From Actinomycetes bacterium (lineage in GTDB: Bacteria > Actinomycetota > Acidimicrobiia > Acidimicrobiales > Ilumatobacteraceae), in assembly GCA_025359865.1 (NCBI GenBank), contig JANYDH010000190.1, positions 1 through 50,623 on the forward strand: a stretch of 50,623 nt of DNA. The letters run 5' to 3'. The notes under the pieces are model-generated. The model was not told the DNA's origin, made no database searches, and was given only the letters and a program-made list of their open reading frames with translations. This document shows positions 17,763-50,396 of the stretch, piece after piece; position 1 is the first letter of the stretch; each line of letters starts with the position of its first letter. The position numbers and the translations under genes are program-made.

Positions 17763-19925
17763 TCAGGTTGCCGGGCAGCCACCGGTTGTGGTGGGCGGTG
17801 TCACGTTCAGTTCGTGCATGATTGATGGAACAATTCGTGCAAAGACTGGCGCTGCCGCCGTACCACCGAACCGGGCGATGTCGTCAGCCGGTGGCTCGTC
17901 GATCGACACCAGCACCGTCACCTGCGGGTCTTCGGCCGGGAAGAATCCGACGAACGATGCGTAGTAGGTGCGATTGCCGTCGGCGTCGAGATAGGTGCCG
18001 TTCGGCTGCGCTTTCAACCCCGTGCCGGTTTTGCCGGCGATCGTCACGCCATCCACCTGAGCAAGCTTTCCGGTACCAGAGCACACCACTTCGCGCATCA
18101 TCGCATTCATCTCTACGGCTACCTCCGGCTTCACCACACGGTGGGTCGCCGATGGCGCGGCCGGGGTCATCGCTCCGTCAGGCCCAATGGTCGCCTTGAG
18201 CAGTTTCGGAGCAACGTACATGCCACCGTTGGCGAGCACGTTCATCGCTGTCACGAGTTGAATCGACGTGGTACCGACCCCCTGCCCATAACCGACGGTG
18301 TACTGCTCGGCCCCTTCGAGCTTCTTCCAGTCCTTCAACAAACCCTTCGACTCGCCGGGGAAGTCGAGCGGTGAACTGGCCCCCAGACCGAAGGCGGTCA
18401 TGTAGGAGTATTGCTTTTCCTTAGTTTCGCGCAGCGTTGCCCCGAGGCTCAGCATCACTTCGGTGGTGCCAATGTTGGATGACTTGACGAGGATCTTCGA
18501 GACCGACCACGACTCGGTGGGATGCTGTTCCGCATCGTGGAGCATGGTGTCGGAGAACATCTTCTGCCACGGCACCTCGAGGTAGGTGGAGGGCGTGACC
18601 GTTCCCTCGTTCAGTGCCGCCGCAATGGTGATCGCCTTTGCCACCGAACCGGGCTCGTCGGTGTCGACCACAGCGATGTTTCCGCTCGTCACCTCGTAGA
18701 CCCCCTTCGCGTTGATACGAACGCCAGCCATTGCGATGATCTCGCCCGTCTTGGTCGACATCACGATCGCGGTGCCACCACGCGCCCCGAGCGTGGATAC
18801 CTGAGACAGCAGTGCCTGTTCGACCGTGTATTGGACCGAGCGGTCGACGGTGAGCACCACGTCGTTTCCCGGAACGGGCGCGATAGTGGTGGCATCAATG
18901 CCCGCTAGAGTACGCCCATCCTTGTCGCGCTCGCGGATCTCGGATCCGTCCGTACCCGTCAATGTCGCATCGAACTGCATCTCGATGCCAGCCGTTCCGT
19001 TGCCATCGATGTCGGTGCGGCCGATGATGCTCTTGCCGACCTCGCCGCCCGGCATCGTACGGCGATCCTCCTGCACCGCTTCGACTCCGTTCAGCTTCAG
19101 CCCGATGACAGCCGAAGCCTTCGCGTCGTCCACCTGTCGGGCTACATAGACGAAGCTCCTGTCCTTGGCCACGAACGCAGCAACGAGTTGCTGCTGTTTG
19201 GCGTCTGATAGGCCGAGGAGTTGCGCCAGGACTGCCGCTGTTCCGACTGGATCGGTCACCTCTTTCGGATTGGCGGTGATCGTCACCGCCGGCACCGACA
19301 AAGCGAGTTCGTCGCCATTGCGATCGAAGATCACCCCTCGACCTGCGCGAAGCGCCGTGACACTCGTACGTTGCGCCCGACCAGCATCTTGCAACTGTTG
19401 AGCGTCACTCGTCTGCAATAACGCAACGCGGCCGATGACGAGAACGAACAGGAGTGCAGCCACGATGATGACAGCCAGGAGCCTGCGGCGTGACTGACCG
19501 GCACGAAAGACCCGCTGTACGTCTCGTGGCGACTTGGCGATCCGCCGTTGCATGCCGATCGGCCCCCGACCGCGTCGCGGTGCTGATGGCCGAACTGTGG
19601 TTCCTCGGCGAGGATTCGTGTGCGTCCGGCTACCCCGCGACGACGTCGGGACAACGCCTGTGTGGCGGGCTGATGACCGGCGGAGTCCGGGCCGATACGG
19701 ATCCTGAGGACGTGTTTCGTTCCGGTGCCGGTCTTGACGTCGCGAGTCGGCGCGGCGGGGCCCGGCGCTGCGGACGGGTTGCAGCTCGCGTCGCGAGTGA
19801 CGCACGGCCCCTCTGGCCACCTCTTTGGCGGACGAACTGCGTGCCTGCGGTTCGGGCTTTCGCCTCACACGCGGGTCGGGAGTAAGCCGACGATCGTTGT
19901 CCTCGCGACGGGTTCGGTTGGTCAT
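17763..19925 (-). CDS. ftsI: Septal transpeptidase FtsI (class B penicillin-binding protein)
   Basis: This 720-residue bitopic transpeptidase cross-links septal peptidoglycan. An Arg-rich cytoplasmic tail of about 148 residues precedes one membrane helix (about 149-170). The dimerisation domain follows (AGRGVIFDRNGDELA). The transpeptidase domain has S427-V-A-K, S482-S-N and K632-T-G. The usual EPGSxFK is EPGSVAK here, still with the SxxK pattern. It pairs with FtsW, encoded downstream. The ATG overlaps the ftsL stop (ATGA). Confidence 0.94.
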   Translation of the reverse strand: MTNRTRREDNDRRLTPDPRVRRKPEPQARSSSAKEVARGAVRHSRRELQPVRSAGPRRADSRRQDRHRNETRPQDPYRPGLRRSSARHTGVVPTSSRGSRTHTNPRRGTTVRPSAPRRGRGPIGMQRRIAKSPRDVQRVFRAGQSRRRLLAVIIVAALLFVLVIGRVALLQTSDAQQLQDAGRAQRTSVTALRAGRGVIFDRNGDELALSVPAVTITANPKEVTDPVGTAAVLAQLLGLSDAKQQQLVAAFVAKDRSFVYVARQVDDAKASAVIGLKLNGVEAVQEDRRTMPGGEVGKSIIGRTDIDGNGTAGIEMQFDATLTGTDGSEIRERDKDGRTLAGIDATTIAPVPGNDVVLTVDRSVQYTVEQALLSQVSTLGARGGTAIVMSTKTGEIIAMAGVRINAKGVYEVTSGNIAVVDTDEPGSVAKAITIAAALNEGTVTPSTYLEVPWQKMFSDTMLHDAEQHPTESWSVSKILVKSSNIGTTEVMLSLGATLRETKEKQYSYMTAFGLGASSPLDFPGESKGLLKDWKKLEGAEQYTVGYGQGVGTTSIQLVTAMNVLANGGMYVAPKLLKATIGPDGAMTPAAPSATHRVVKPEVAVEMNAMMREVVCSGTGKLAQVDGVTIAGKTGTGLKAQPNGTYLDADGNRTYYASFVGFFPAEDPQVTVLVSIDEPPADDIARFGGTAAAPVFARIVPSIMHELNVTPPTTTGGCPAT

Positions 19926-47850: not shown

Positions 47851-47895
47851 CGTTGCCGCGCAGCGAGGTTGCTCCATACACTGCGGCGGCTGCAC

Positions 47896-47970
47896 GCGCC
47901 TCTAGCTCAACGGCAGAGCAACGGACTCTTAATCCGCAGGTTCTGGGTTCGAAACCCAGGGGGCGCACCA
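47896..47970 (+). tRNA. tRNA-Lys (CTT anticodon)
   Basis: The acceptor GCGCCTC (47896-47902) pairs with GGGGCGC (47960-47966) with one wobble. The anticodon loop CTCTTAA gives CTT. The T arm is CTGGG-TTCGAAA-CCCAG. A discriminator A and an encoded CCA end at 47970. It stands directly before the integrase gene and is the probable insertion site of the element. Confidence 0.95.
47940..47970 (+). other. Putative attachment site (tRNA-Lys 3' end)
   Basis: Integrating elements with tyrosine integrases commonly use tRNA 3' ends, leaving the tRNA whole at one junction. The integrase starts 110 bases beyond this tRNA, in the usual orientation. The second junction is outside the window, so the exact core cannot be defined. 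Confidence 0.45.
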
Positions 47971-47999
47971 CATACATCCAGCTCAGAGGCACTTTCTGA

Positions 48000-48078
48000 G
48001 CGAGTTGCGAAAGTCTATTCAGCGAGTTAGGCACCGGGCCTGGTCTAGACACGTCAATAGACTGTCGATAGACTTTTC
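48000..48078 (+). repeat. AATAGACT repeats before the integrase (possible arm sites)
   Basis: AAAGTCTATT (48010-48019), AATAGACT (48056-48063) and ATAGACTTTT (48068-48077) share one core; the last two are 11 bases apart in direct orientation and the first is inverted. GCGAGTT also occurs twice (48000-48006 and 48022-48028). They lie between the tRNA and the integrase, where arm-type integrase sites or the integrase promoter would be. Confidence 0.5.
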
Positions 48079-48080
48079 TC

Positions 48081-49532
48081 ATGTCGCTCGACAGAGACCG
48101 CTTCGAGGCGAAGATCGACCGCTCCGGGTTGCATCACCTGTGGCTCGGCGCCGCCGCGACGAACGGTGTCGGGCAGGTCCGAATCGACGGCAAATTGGTC
48201 ACCGCTCCCCGCGTCGCGTACGAGTTGGAGCACGGGCCACTTGCCAACGGCGATCGTGTGTTGACCTGTCCAGCTGAGCCCGGATGTGTCCGTGTCGATC
48301 ATCTTCGTGTCGACCAACGTGCGTCAAGAGAGCCCGCCGCGGCTCCCCGACGCGCTGTGCGCGGCGCCGGATCGATCCAGGCAATGTCGCGTGGAGTGTG
48401 GAAGATTGGCGTCACAGCCGGCGTCGACTCGGACGGCAAGCGCCGACGAAGCTTTCGAACCGTTCGAGGGACGCGCACCGACGCTGCCAAAGCACTTGCC
48501 GCACTGGTCACCGAGGTCGGCGACGGCAGTCGACTCCCCCGTCAGGCGGACAAGCAGCTCAGCGTTGACGCCTTGGTCGAGTGGTACCTCACATTCGCCG
48601 CTGAAGATCGTGGGCTCGAGCACTCGACCATCGTCGGTTATGGAGACGCCTACACCCACTGGTTGCAAGACATCATCGGAACAAAGCGGGCCAGCTCCGT
48701 CACGATGGCCGATCTCGACAAAGCGTTCGGCCGGATGCGGCGTGCCGAGCTCTCGCACAGTCGGATGAACAACGCTCGATCGGTGCTCAGCGGTGCATAC
48801 AAGTGGGGCAAGCGCCATGGCAAGGTCACTTCGAATCCGGTCGACGGGTTCGAAATCCCGGCCAGCAAGCACACTCCACGCCCGACAACCGCACCAGAAA
48901 TCGAGGATCTGCTGCGGTTACTCGATGTCGCCGACGAGCACGACGAGATCCTGGCCCCCGTCCTCAAGCTCGGCGCAACGACGGGCCTACGGCGAGGCGA
49001 GTTGTCCGGCCTACGCCGTAACCGCCTCAACCTCGATCGCCGCGAATTGATCGTGGACACCGCGATCAACGATGCCGGCGGAATCGTCGTCGAGAAGCAG
49101 ACCAAGACCCGCAGCCGGCGATCGGTCGCGCTCGATGCGGTAACCGTGGATCTGCTGCGCCAGCACCTCAAGGCGATGGACGACCGAGCCGAACTGCTCC
49201 GCACGAAGGTGGCCCCCGACGCGTTCGTCTTCAGCCTCGACCCGGATTGCGGGACGCCGATGCGCCCCGAGTTCCTGACACGTCGGATGCGCCAACTGCG
49301 CAAGGAGTACAACCTCACTGACGGCAGCTTCGATGCAACAATCCTGGCACTGCGCAAGTGGACGAGCAGCGAACTGATGGACGCCGGCTTCAACCCCGCC
49401 GCGGTCAGCGGCCGGCAAGGCCACACCGTCCAAGTAATGCTCCACCACTACTCGACACGCCGACAGTCCGCCGACAAAGCGGCGGCCGAACATCTCGGAG
49501 CTCGAGTGCACCAACGAGCCGGCACTGAGTAG
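48081..49532 (+). CDS. Tyrosine integrase with N-terminal HNH-like domain
   Basis: The 483-residue protein has three parts. Residues about 5-78 (RFEAKIDRSGLHHLWLGAA, APRVAYELEHGPL, CVRVDHLRV) resemble the HNH_3 homing-endonuclease fold, but the usual H-L-C-D and CVNP residues are altered, so cleavage activity is doubtful. Residues about 105-150 resemble an arm-binding domain, and 160-250 the SAM-like core-binding domain. The catalytic domain has R304, a Lys in KTRSRR, R425, H448 and Y457; the His of HxxR is Leu422. It would move the element into and out of tRNA-Lys. Confidence 0.9.
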   Translation: MSLDRDRFEAKIDRSGLHHLWLGAAATNGVGQVRIDGKLVTAPRVAYELEHGPLANGDRVLTCPAEPGCVRVDHLRVDQRASREPAAAPRRAVRGAGSIQAMSRGVWKIGVTAGVDSDGKRRRSFRTVRGTRTDAAKALAALVTEVGDGSRLPRQADKQLSVDALVEWYLTFAAEDRGLEHSTIVGYGDAYTHWLQDIIGTKRASSVTMADLDKAFGRMRRAELSHSRMNNARSVLSGAYKWGKRHGKVTSNPVDGFEIPASKHTPRPTTAPEIEDLLRLLDVADEHDEILAPVLKLGATTGLRRGELSGLRRNRLNLDRRELIVDTAINDAGGIVVEKQTKTRSRRSVALDAVTVDLLRQHLKAMDDRAELLRTKVAPDAFVFSLDPDCGTPMRPEFLTRRMRQLRKEYNLTDGSFDATILALRKWTSSELMDAGFNPAAVSGRQGHTVQVMLHHYSTRRQSADKAAAEHLGARVHQRAGTE

Positions 49533-50060
49533 GTCGGCGGTCCGCGCTACCGGCGACGGCTGCTGCGGAGCTTCACCGCTCGTACATCGACGACGACGAG
49601 TGACCCTCCCGCTCGAATTCTAAGCGGGAACTCTCGGCGCAGACCCGGGCGTCCTGGCGACGGTCTCAGCTCCTGCCGAGGAATCGAGACTGACGTCCCC
49701 AACCAAGAATCGATGCGCCTCACGGCTGCCACGCGCTCCGGGAACGCAGGTGGCCGGCACTTCAGGAGGTCTTGTCCCGTTGCCGCGATTTGAGGCCCCG
49801 TTGGTGGGTGAGCCTCGTAACGAAGTGTGTGTCGACGGCTACGAGCAGAGGGGGCCAAGACATTTGAGTGATTCCGAGTTGCCCGCACACAAATCGTTCC
49901 GGCAGTCGATGGATTCCGGCCGAGAGTGCTGCGCCCGGGCCGAAATGACCTCTGTAACTCACTGGGGCCTTCCGAACGTGCGCACGAGGTTCACGGCTTC
50001 GGCCACGACGGCGTCACGAAATCTGATTTTGACAGGCATGTATTGACGGAGGTGCAAGTG
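49533..50060. other. Region between integrase and excisionase-like gene
   Basis: About 530 bases without a supported gene. Arg-rich frames on both strands look like shadows. A hairpin with seven perfect pairs (TCCCGCT/AGCGGGA, nine-base loop) lies at 49607-49629, 75 bases after the integrase stop. Nothing else is clear; an origin of transfer could lie here or near 50400. Confidence 0.4.
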
Positions 50061-50396
50061 GTGAGCGAACCGATTGACGAGTGGAGCGCAATGCCGCTCA
50101 TGCTGACCGTCGAAGACGCCGCGCGGGTGCTTCGCATCGGCAGGTCCAAGGCGTATGAGATGGCGAAGCTGTACACCGCCAGCGGCGGGACCGCCGGACT
50201 CGCATGCCTGCGTCTTGGTGATCTGCTTCGCGTCCCCAAGTTCGCGTTGCACGAGTTCGTGACCACCGGTCGCGTCGTGCAGCTCATCCCGCAACACGTC
50301 GCGAACGCGACTCCCGACGCGACTGCCTCGCGCAAGCCGGCGTCCAAGTCTCGCGGCACGGATCGCGCTCAGTTGTCGTTGCTCGGATCGGACTGA
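50061..50396 (+). CDS. Excisionase-like helix-turn-helix protein
   Basis: The 111-residue protein has an N-terminal winged-helix motif of the MerR/HTH_17 excisionase type: LMLTVEDAARVLRIGRSKAYEMAKLY, then LRLGDLLRVPKFALHEFV. The Lys/Arg-rich tail follows. GGAGG lies eight bases before the GTG at 50061 (five before another GTG at 50058). Its place between integrase and relaxase fits a recombination directionality factor that promotes excision, though it could also be a simple regulator. Confidence 0.82.
   Translation: MSEPIDEWSAMPLMLTVEDAARVLRIGRSKAYEMAKLYTASGGTAGLACLRLGDLLRVPKFALHEFVTTGRVVQLIPQHVANATPDATASRKPASKSRGTDRAQLSLLGSD

Follow-up and report, generated by a model that had tools for sequence, protein, structure and literature searches.

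A degenerate homing-endonuclease domain at the front of tRNA-Lys-associated tyrosine integrases of actinomycetes, and its possible role as a second arm-site reader

Integrases of mobile elements have been described as proteins of three parts, an arm-binding, a core-binding and a catalytic domain, and the gain of the arm-binding domain has been described as essential for their function in mobility (both in PMC8138268). The integrase considered here resembles those of the Tn916/Tn1549 type in its core-binding and catalytic fold, in having an arm-binding domain, and in the tRNA 3' half that serves as core. A second relevant class is that of the HNH-AP2 homing endonucleases, as described in PMC10448857. 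Phage members of that class (PHROG 3593; gp90 of Mycobacterium phage Nappy) carry an HNH_3 domain homologous to, and 41% identical with, the front of our integrase, followed by a stretch that we read as an AP2-like domain. Among the matches listed from a PMC subset, the titles and abstract openings describe no fusion of an HNH domain with a tyrosine integrase.

The window, as we call the whole stretch of DNA analysed, is one complete contig of 50,623 bases (G000:C78). Its integrase gene starts 111 bases past the end of a tRNA-Lys(CTT) gene (Table 1). The whole product matches phrog_1 (E 1.8e-42), residues 276-459 match the Pfam Phage_integrase family (E 2.8e-11), and the core-binding and catalytic fold compares with that of Tn1549 Int at Z 18.6, with an rmsd of 4.0 over 264 aligned residues. 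The arm-binding domain is predicted, at modest confidence, to be AP2-like, with three strands (residues 97-103, 106-115 and 121-129) and a helix (132-146). It is the usual first domain of related integrases that lack the HNH-like domain, which we call domain-less, and most BLAST alignments with those proteins start at residues 88-97. The HNH-like domain sits ahead of this ordinary arm-binding domain and so is not a standard integrase N-terminus, as the first-pass annotation had allowed that it might be.

Table 1. Features of the integrase locus in the window
Feature	Position	Strand	Basis or remark
tRNA-Lys(CTT), integration site	47896..47970	+	
Probable attL core, tRNA-Lys anticodon loop to 3' end	47926..47970	+	recurring copies; att of relatives
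Inverted arm-site copy, AATAGAC on minus strand	48013..48019	-	
Direct arm-site copy 1, TCTAGAC	48044..48050	+	weakest; family motif only
Direct arm-site copy 2, AATAGAC	48056..48062	+	
Direct arm-site copy 3, GATAGAC	48067..48073	+	
Tyrosine integrase, 483 aa (HNH-like, arm-binding, core-binding and catalytic domains)	48081..49529	+	ORF 48081-49532 intact
Degenerate N-terminal domain of HNH_3 type (His-Me finger), residues 1-78	48081..48314	+	profile, fold, motif
Arm-binding domain, residues 96-150	48366..48530	+	predicted three strands and helix
Core-binding domain, residues about 158-262	48552..48866	+	
Catalytic domain, residues about 270-470	48888..49490	+	
HTH_17 protein, possible excisionase or regulator of the same element	49926..50393	+	E 1.3e-5, just under cut-off

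The catalytic domain keeps R304, R425, H448 and Y457, and the His of the HxxR box is replaced by Leu422 (49344-49346), just as was first noted. Among the 15 full-length fusions of alignment A3 this position is Leu in 12, Val in one and His in two; elsewhere, it is Asn in L016 and Gln in the fragment L133, and L049 is a relative with a natural His. We take H305 of Flp to be the equivalent position. The Flp H305L protein retains cleavage, joining is almost absent and recombination is inactivated (PMC6594588), so that a natural Leu in the HxxR box is notable, and the lost histidine poses a catalytic question of its own. One sub-lineage of the fusions (L048, L051-L055, L062 and L067) has about 70 extra residues in the catalytic domain ahead of the HxxR box; by pattern only, the insert reads as helix-turn-helix-like, and a Pfam scan of L048 gave no match there.

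Where does the front domain come from? In the first pass it had been read as an HNH_3-like domain fused in frame with a complete tyrosine recombinase, and that reading is borne out by matches to PHROG families and phage HNH genes and by the predicted fold. Comparison with the HNH_3 profile itself gives a divided answer. Alone, residues 1-84 of the window protein score 12.9 bits, under the gathering cut-off of 24.8, while the homologous domain of L048 barely passes it with 24.9; of the 21 homologues in alignment A1 (17 bacterial, the window included, and four from phages), 20 match HNH_3 at E<=1. The domain also matches five endonuclease families of PHROG, with E-values between 5.5e-13 and 2.5e-5, the best being phrog_826 (E 5.5e-13), phrog_4842 (7.3e-11) and a third at 4.5e-10. 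By tblastn it finds eight phage records with genes annotated as HNH endonuclease or endonuclease, at 37-41% identity and E 6e-7 to 7e-6, led by HNH genes of the Mycobacterium phages Nappy and Cane17 (41% identity, E 6e-7). Folded alone from a 54-sequence alignment, the domain yields a model of pLDDT 89.9 with the predicted fold of an HNH/His-Me finger (treble clef), in agreement with the first reading. The model's matches among viral structures reach a TM of about 0.8, with 82 at E<=0.001, and the best are mostly named HNH endonuclease or nuclease. The best matches in the PDB are I-PpoI (Z 5.7), Smad MH1 (Z 5.4, rmsd 3.2 over 74 aligned residues, Foldseek E>1), I-HmuI (Z 5.1) and NFI (Z 4.7); these are weak by Foldseek, the best E being 0.57, and a Z of 5-6 alone could reflect a common arrangement. 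The profile of the domain found nothing credible among PDB sequences (best E 0.13), a scan of viral contigs with the full protein found no relative, and an NCBIfam scan gave no match for the domain.

Two replacements in the nuclease motif had been taken as signs of degeneracy, and both are real: the position of the first catalytic His is occupied by T62 (48264-48266), and that of the Asn by R71. They are not of equal value. The HNH motif is readable in 27 of 31 fusions (L060, L069, L070 and L026 being the others), and in all 27 the first His is replaced, by Ala, Pro, Ser, Gln, Thr or Gly, whereas it is retained in 56 of 56 standalone viral relatives. Likewise the T..N motif after HL is missing from 26 of the 27 and present in 51 of the 56. 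The Asn-to-Arg change, however, also occurs in 55 of the 56 viral proteins that have the first His, in a scan whose pattern itself required CVR and thus favoured such proteins, so that it is weak evidence of degeneracy and not diagnostic. By this comparison of sequences, loss of the first His is the real mark of degeneracy. In alignment A3, C63, C69 and H74 are the same in every sequence and H18/H19 in nearly all, each of them being present in the window's domain, and this set of His and Cys residues could hold a structural zinc. The zinc site of Smad MH1 consists of three Cys and one His (PMC5727232). Six pairs of domains give dN/dS values of 0.07-0.29, three of these pairs being drawn from one set of three sequences, and a seventh and nearly identical pair gives 0.37 from very few changes; judged by these ratios, the domain is under purifying selection.

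How widely are the fusions spread? Of 298 genomes sampled from the window's order, 31 match at E<=0.01, ordinary HNH proteins included, and at the stricter cut of E<=1e-15, 21 of 397 match. The class sample gave matches in 10 of 395 genomes at E<=1e-8, again with ordinary HNH proteins included; L202, a truncated fusion like those described here, comes from that sample and lies outside the window's order. When 84,980 species genomes were scanned, 29 loci emerged, of which 28 are in actinomycete MAGs and the remaining one, L068, is a standalone HNH protein in a Blastocatellia MAG. In none of the 56 viral loci, whose ORFs were read, is the domain fused to an integrase. In a tree of integrase bodies that also includes 49 domain-less rows, the 18 near-complete fusion rows cluster together with support 100/99. 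Among the matches listed, all bodies matching with at least 177.9 bits carry the domain, except L131 and L133, which are cut by contig ends; two shorter fragments without the domain, L165 and L176, exist as well. On the tree, then, the fusions are one clade, mostly in the window's own order. The domain-less controls were those nearest by body similarity, namely 16 loci (L142-L157) and 40 further places, one of which is a fusion; the body search behind them scored at most six candidates per genome, and 22 duplicate locus ids, from the same contigs, were removed before the tree, motif and repeat counts. The truncated integrase L176 is counted inside the 44 domain-less loci. L204, from the window's family, has one ORF, around 1501-2080, that matches the fusion-domain profile in two stretches, and no integrase was seen there.

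Between the tRNA and the integrase gene, most fusion loci have an array of GATRSAC-like sites, one of them inverted and three direct, at steps of about 12 bp. The window's array (48013-48073) scores 24 of 28, the best in the whole 50.6 kb, with the next at 22. A full array stands above its own shuffles in 25 of 34 fusion loci and in one of 44 domain-less loci, and scores of at least 23 of 28 are reached in 20 of the former and none of the latter; in those 20 the inverted copy lies 31-37 bases before the three direct copies. The nine fusion loci not above shuffles are L025, L043, L045, L052, L058, L061, L064, L066 and L071, some of them cut by contig ends, and the copies are poor in a few of the 25 positive loci (L047, L054, L063 and L067). 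Exact GATRSAC, a consensus learned from the same fusion loci in which it was counted, occurs 56 times in the 34 against 2.3 expected from shuffles (20 loci have it, 13 of them two or more times), and is absent from the 44 domain-less loci, where 1.9 were expected. With one mismatch allowed, the counts are 150 against 49.7 expected in fusion loci, and 38 against 37.4 in domain-less loci. For nine of the 34 fusion loci, which have no tRNA anchor, the region taken was a stretch of up to 250 bases ahead of the domain. Tandem repeats of any unit, in three or more copies, are found in 16 of 25 fusion loci, mostly 12-13 apart, against 3 of 44 domain-less loci; in this generic test the window itself shows two. 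The domain-less loci have two repeats in 32 of 44 cases, spaced 11 bases in 21 of those 32, and their upstream region is shorter (median 108.5 bases, against 158 in fusion loci). The distinctive array coincides with the presence of the HNH-like domain. The earlier suggestion that a degenerate domain was reused for DNA binding is plausible. Direct copies 1-3 overlap the sole sigma-70-like match (9/12) in 47860-48120, which hints at self-repression, whereby binding to the array might repress the integrase promoter.

Two further observations concern this region. The sequence of the repeat unit in domain-less loci seems to go with the integrase subclade; at tRNA-Arg(ACG), for example, L155, L162 and L170 have two TTGGCAA-type repeats 11 bases apart ahead of the integrase. 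A CAGGTCAG-like motif just past the tRNA was considered as a domain-specific site and rejected, CAGGTCA being present in 6 of 26 loci with the domain (L026 is counted twice among these 26, and once in the repeat count) and in 15 of 44 without it.

The window's genome has four copies of the first 28 bases of the tRNA-Lys 3' half, and only the copy in the window is part of a complete tRNA; the other three are exact, lack the complete tRNA, and are located close to contig ends, in C50, C80 and C96. Contigs C80, C96 and C50 overlap exactly, by 135 and 141 bases. Because matching distal att copies are found in the relatives L049 and L052, we take the core to run from the anticodon loop to the 3' end of the tRNA. 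C96 starts inside the tRNA-Lys 3' half and continues with CCGCGAA repeats 11 bases apart and then with an integrase that begins MGTMRERTPGSWEL, is without the HNH domain and carries a frameshift in the catalytic part. Thus two elements, one whose integrase has the domain and one whose integrase lacks it, seem to be stacked at a single tRNA-Lys site, C78 and C80 being read as separate contigs. A TrwC relaxase is encoded on each of C80 and C96, so that the elements look mobilisable, and the window's integrase belongs to an integrated and probably mobilisable element at tRNA-Lys(CTT). Throughout the apparently stacked elements (C78, C80, C96 and C50; L226-L228) the core is the same and the first 30 or so bases past the tRNA are nearly the same. 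Other loci bear on the history of such elements. L044 and L045, from the same MAG, are near-identical fusion genes cut by contig ends, at tRNA-Lys(CTT) and tRNA-Lys(TTT), respectively. In L049, an ORF at 19143-19769, across and beyond the distal att copy, reads as a remnant HNH-like integrase N-terminus and suggests repeated insertion at the same tRNA. A Mutator-family transposase lies at 6169-7455 of L052, within a fusion element of roughly 6.6 kb.

What does the extra domain do? The first-pass annotation proposed that it sets the choice of tRNA-Lys. ARAGORN places 22 of the 25 fusion loci that have a tRNA at tRNA-Lys (CTT or TTT), and the number rises to 23 when the 'tRNA-Glu' of L063 is rejected as a miscalled tRNA-Lys(CTT) 3' half. 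Counting near-complete fusion rows only, all are at tRNA-Lys wherever a tRNA was called, and distant pairs of them all share it, as distant domain-less pairs do not. Changes of tRNA number two among 19 fusion rows (tree length 10.9; the partial L044, L058, L059, L063, L064 and L065 taken in, L057 being too short) against 16 among 40 domain-less rows (tree length 25.8), and one of the two, that of L063, is really tRNA-Lys; the difference in fidelity is modest. Against a targeting module, the window's genome has, behind the same tRNA-Lys 3' half, the domain-less integrase of C96, and 7 of 44 domain-less loci with a tRNA, from several lineages and one of them truncated, are also at tRNA-Lys. Moreover, the two remaining fusions, L065 at tRNA-Thr and L057 at tRNA-Arg, keep both the domain and the arm array, and the tRNA-Thr of L065 matches tRNA-Lys at all but 2 of 15 anticodon-region bases, which points to recognition of the core. 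Our survey of integrases and their tRNA targets indicates that the chromosomal target does not track the domain; the arm-repeat array does. We accordingly reject tRNA-Lys targeting as the domain's main role, and think it improbable that the domain is a module of that kind. That it is still a nuclease, working through other residues and nicking DNA to aid integration or to harm rivals, is more improbable again: His74 and two Cys of the motif are invariant in A3, as such an activity might require, but the first His and the T..N end of the motif, which all or most of the viral relatives keep, are missing from all and all but one, respectively, of the readable fusions. Chance likeness, an error in the gene start or an assembly artefact would be in keeping with the sub-threshold HNH_3 score of the window protein alone; given homologues in many genomes, purifying selection, the phage HNH matches and a confident fold, we count this explanation as refuted and leave it almost no weight.

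Which of the two N-terminal domains, then, reads the arms? One could suppose that the ordinary arm-binding domain reads the GATRSAC array, and that the HNH-like domain serves in protein contact, dimer control or unspecific DNA binding. Repeats between the tRNA and the integrase gene occur with domain-less integrases of this order as well, and the standard arm-binding domain presumably reads them. The residues that go with the arm motif point mostly, though not exclusively, to the HNH-like domain. With motif classes assigned by eye and loci with other arms excluded, among them L052 (Arg32 with GAGGAACC arms), L062 and L064 (both Val32), residue 32 is Gln in all 11 TAGAC-type loci and Arg or Lys in all 16 GATRCAC-type loci; columns 39 and 43 likewise split the classes, and all three lie within or beside the predicted beta-hairpin 31-41. 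Positions in the other domains, R121 of the arm-binding domain, Y191 and H246, split the classes as well, in fewer rows, and on that account the arm-binding domain could be the reader, but the splitting columns with the fullest coverage cluster on the HNH-like hairpin. Copy number, spacing and motif of the array also shift together with the extra domain. In L016, L059 and L065 the arm-binding domain is shortened, yet the N-terminal domain and GATACAx arms are kept; L044 has a core-binding domain like those of L049 and L056 (55-58% identity), yet Gln32 and TAGAC-type arms. Within the GATRCAC class, mean identity is 68% for the extra domain against 41% for the arm-binding domain; within the TAGAC class the difference is slight, 55% against 50%. 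On balance we consider reading by the arm-binding domain rather unlikely, though less so than any of the explanations weighed above. A phylogenetic test of residue 32 against motif finds two changes at most of each trait, with one independent pair on well-supported branches and two on all branches, so that the link cannot reach significance, and the link of domain and array rests on a single evolutionary event. In view of the rival columns and of only two changes, we hold that the HNH-like domain reads the arm sites with a probability somewhat above even.

The explanation that we favour, and think on balance the probable one, is that a dead homing endonuclease was recruited as a second arm-site reader in an integrase, its DNA binding being deduced from the evidence above. 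The first 78 residues derive from an HNH_3-type homing endonuclease like those of actinobacteriophages, apparently captured once, ahead of a normal arm-binding domain, in the ancestor of the clade, and kept since by selection. The first His and the end of the nuclease motif have been lost, and because of these losses the domain should not cut DNA; the His/Cys set has been kept, possibly around a structural zinc. The beta-hairpin would bind the GATRSAC-like sites between the tRNA and the integrase gene, and the domain, as second reader of arm sites, might help to assemble the recombination complex and perhaps repress the integrase promoter. Recognition of the core at the tRNA would be left to the core-binding and catalytic domains. 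The binding of zinc and of DNA, and site reading by the HNH-like rather than the arm-binding domain, are what we infer from alignments, models and arm arrays. A more specific version, which we regard as possible but hold with less than even confidence, is a reader like Smad MH1, in which the hairpin would contact AGAC-type arms and residue 32 would set the motif (Gln for TAGAC, Arg or Lys for GATRCAC). It would be a second kind of arm-binding domain, placed on top of the usual one, in company with the layout of one inverted and three direct arms and with a lineage that functions in the absence of the HxxR His. Since integrases of both kinds occur at a single tRNA sequence in the window's genome, the role of the domain is directly testable.

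How does this compare with what is known elsewhere? Relative to the Tn916/Tn1549 type, the window's clade adds the N-terminal HNH-like domain and arms of one inverted and three direct copies, and the HxxR His is replaced in most full-length fusions seen. The phage HNH-AP2 endonucleases differ in retaining the catalytic His, in standing alone and in lacking recombinase domains. The clade joins to a standard integrase with its arm-binding domain an added domain of homing-endonuclease origin, apparently dead as a nuclease, and has an arm array of its own. The DNA-binding domains of Smad (MH1) and NFI may be similar to our model in fold, though the match is weak even for MH1 (Z 5.4), and they belong to transcription factors, not recombinases. 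MH1 is a degraded homing endonuclease according to the title of Grishin 2001, as cited in PMC4999995. Smad MH1 reads GTCT/AGAC through Arg, Gln and Lys of a beta-hairpin (PMC5727232), and here the TAGAC arms go with hairpin Gln32, a parallel drawn at the level of sequence and predicted fold rather than of superposed residues. If our reading is correct, the integrase fusions would be a bacterial repeat of what is proposed for Smad MH1, and a nuclease-derived front domain with a different arm layout would show how recombinases acquire DNA-reading modules. Plant AP2 factors and CapR derive from DNA-binding domains of homing endonucleases (PMC10448857), and are alike in that parts of homing endonucleases were recruited as DNA binders; they kept the separate DNA-binding half, whereas the integrase fusions kept the half with the nuclease fold.
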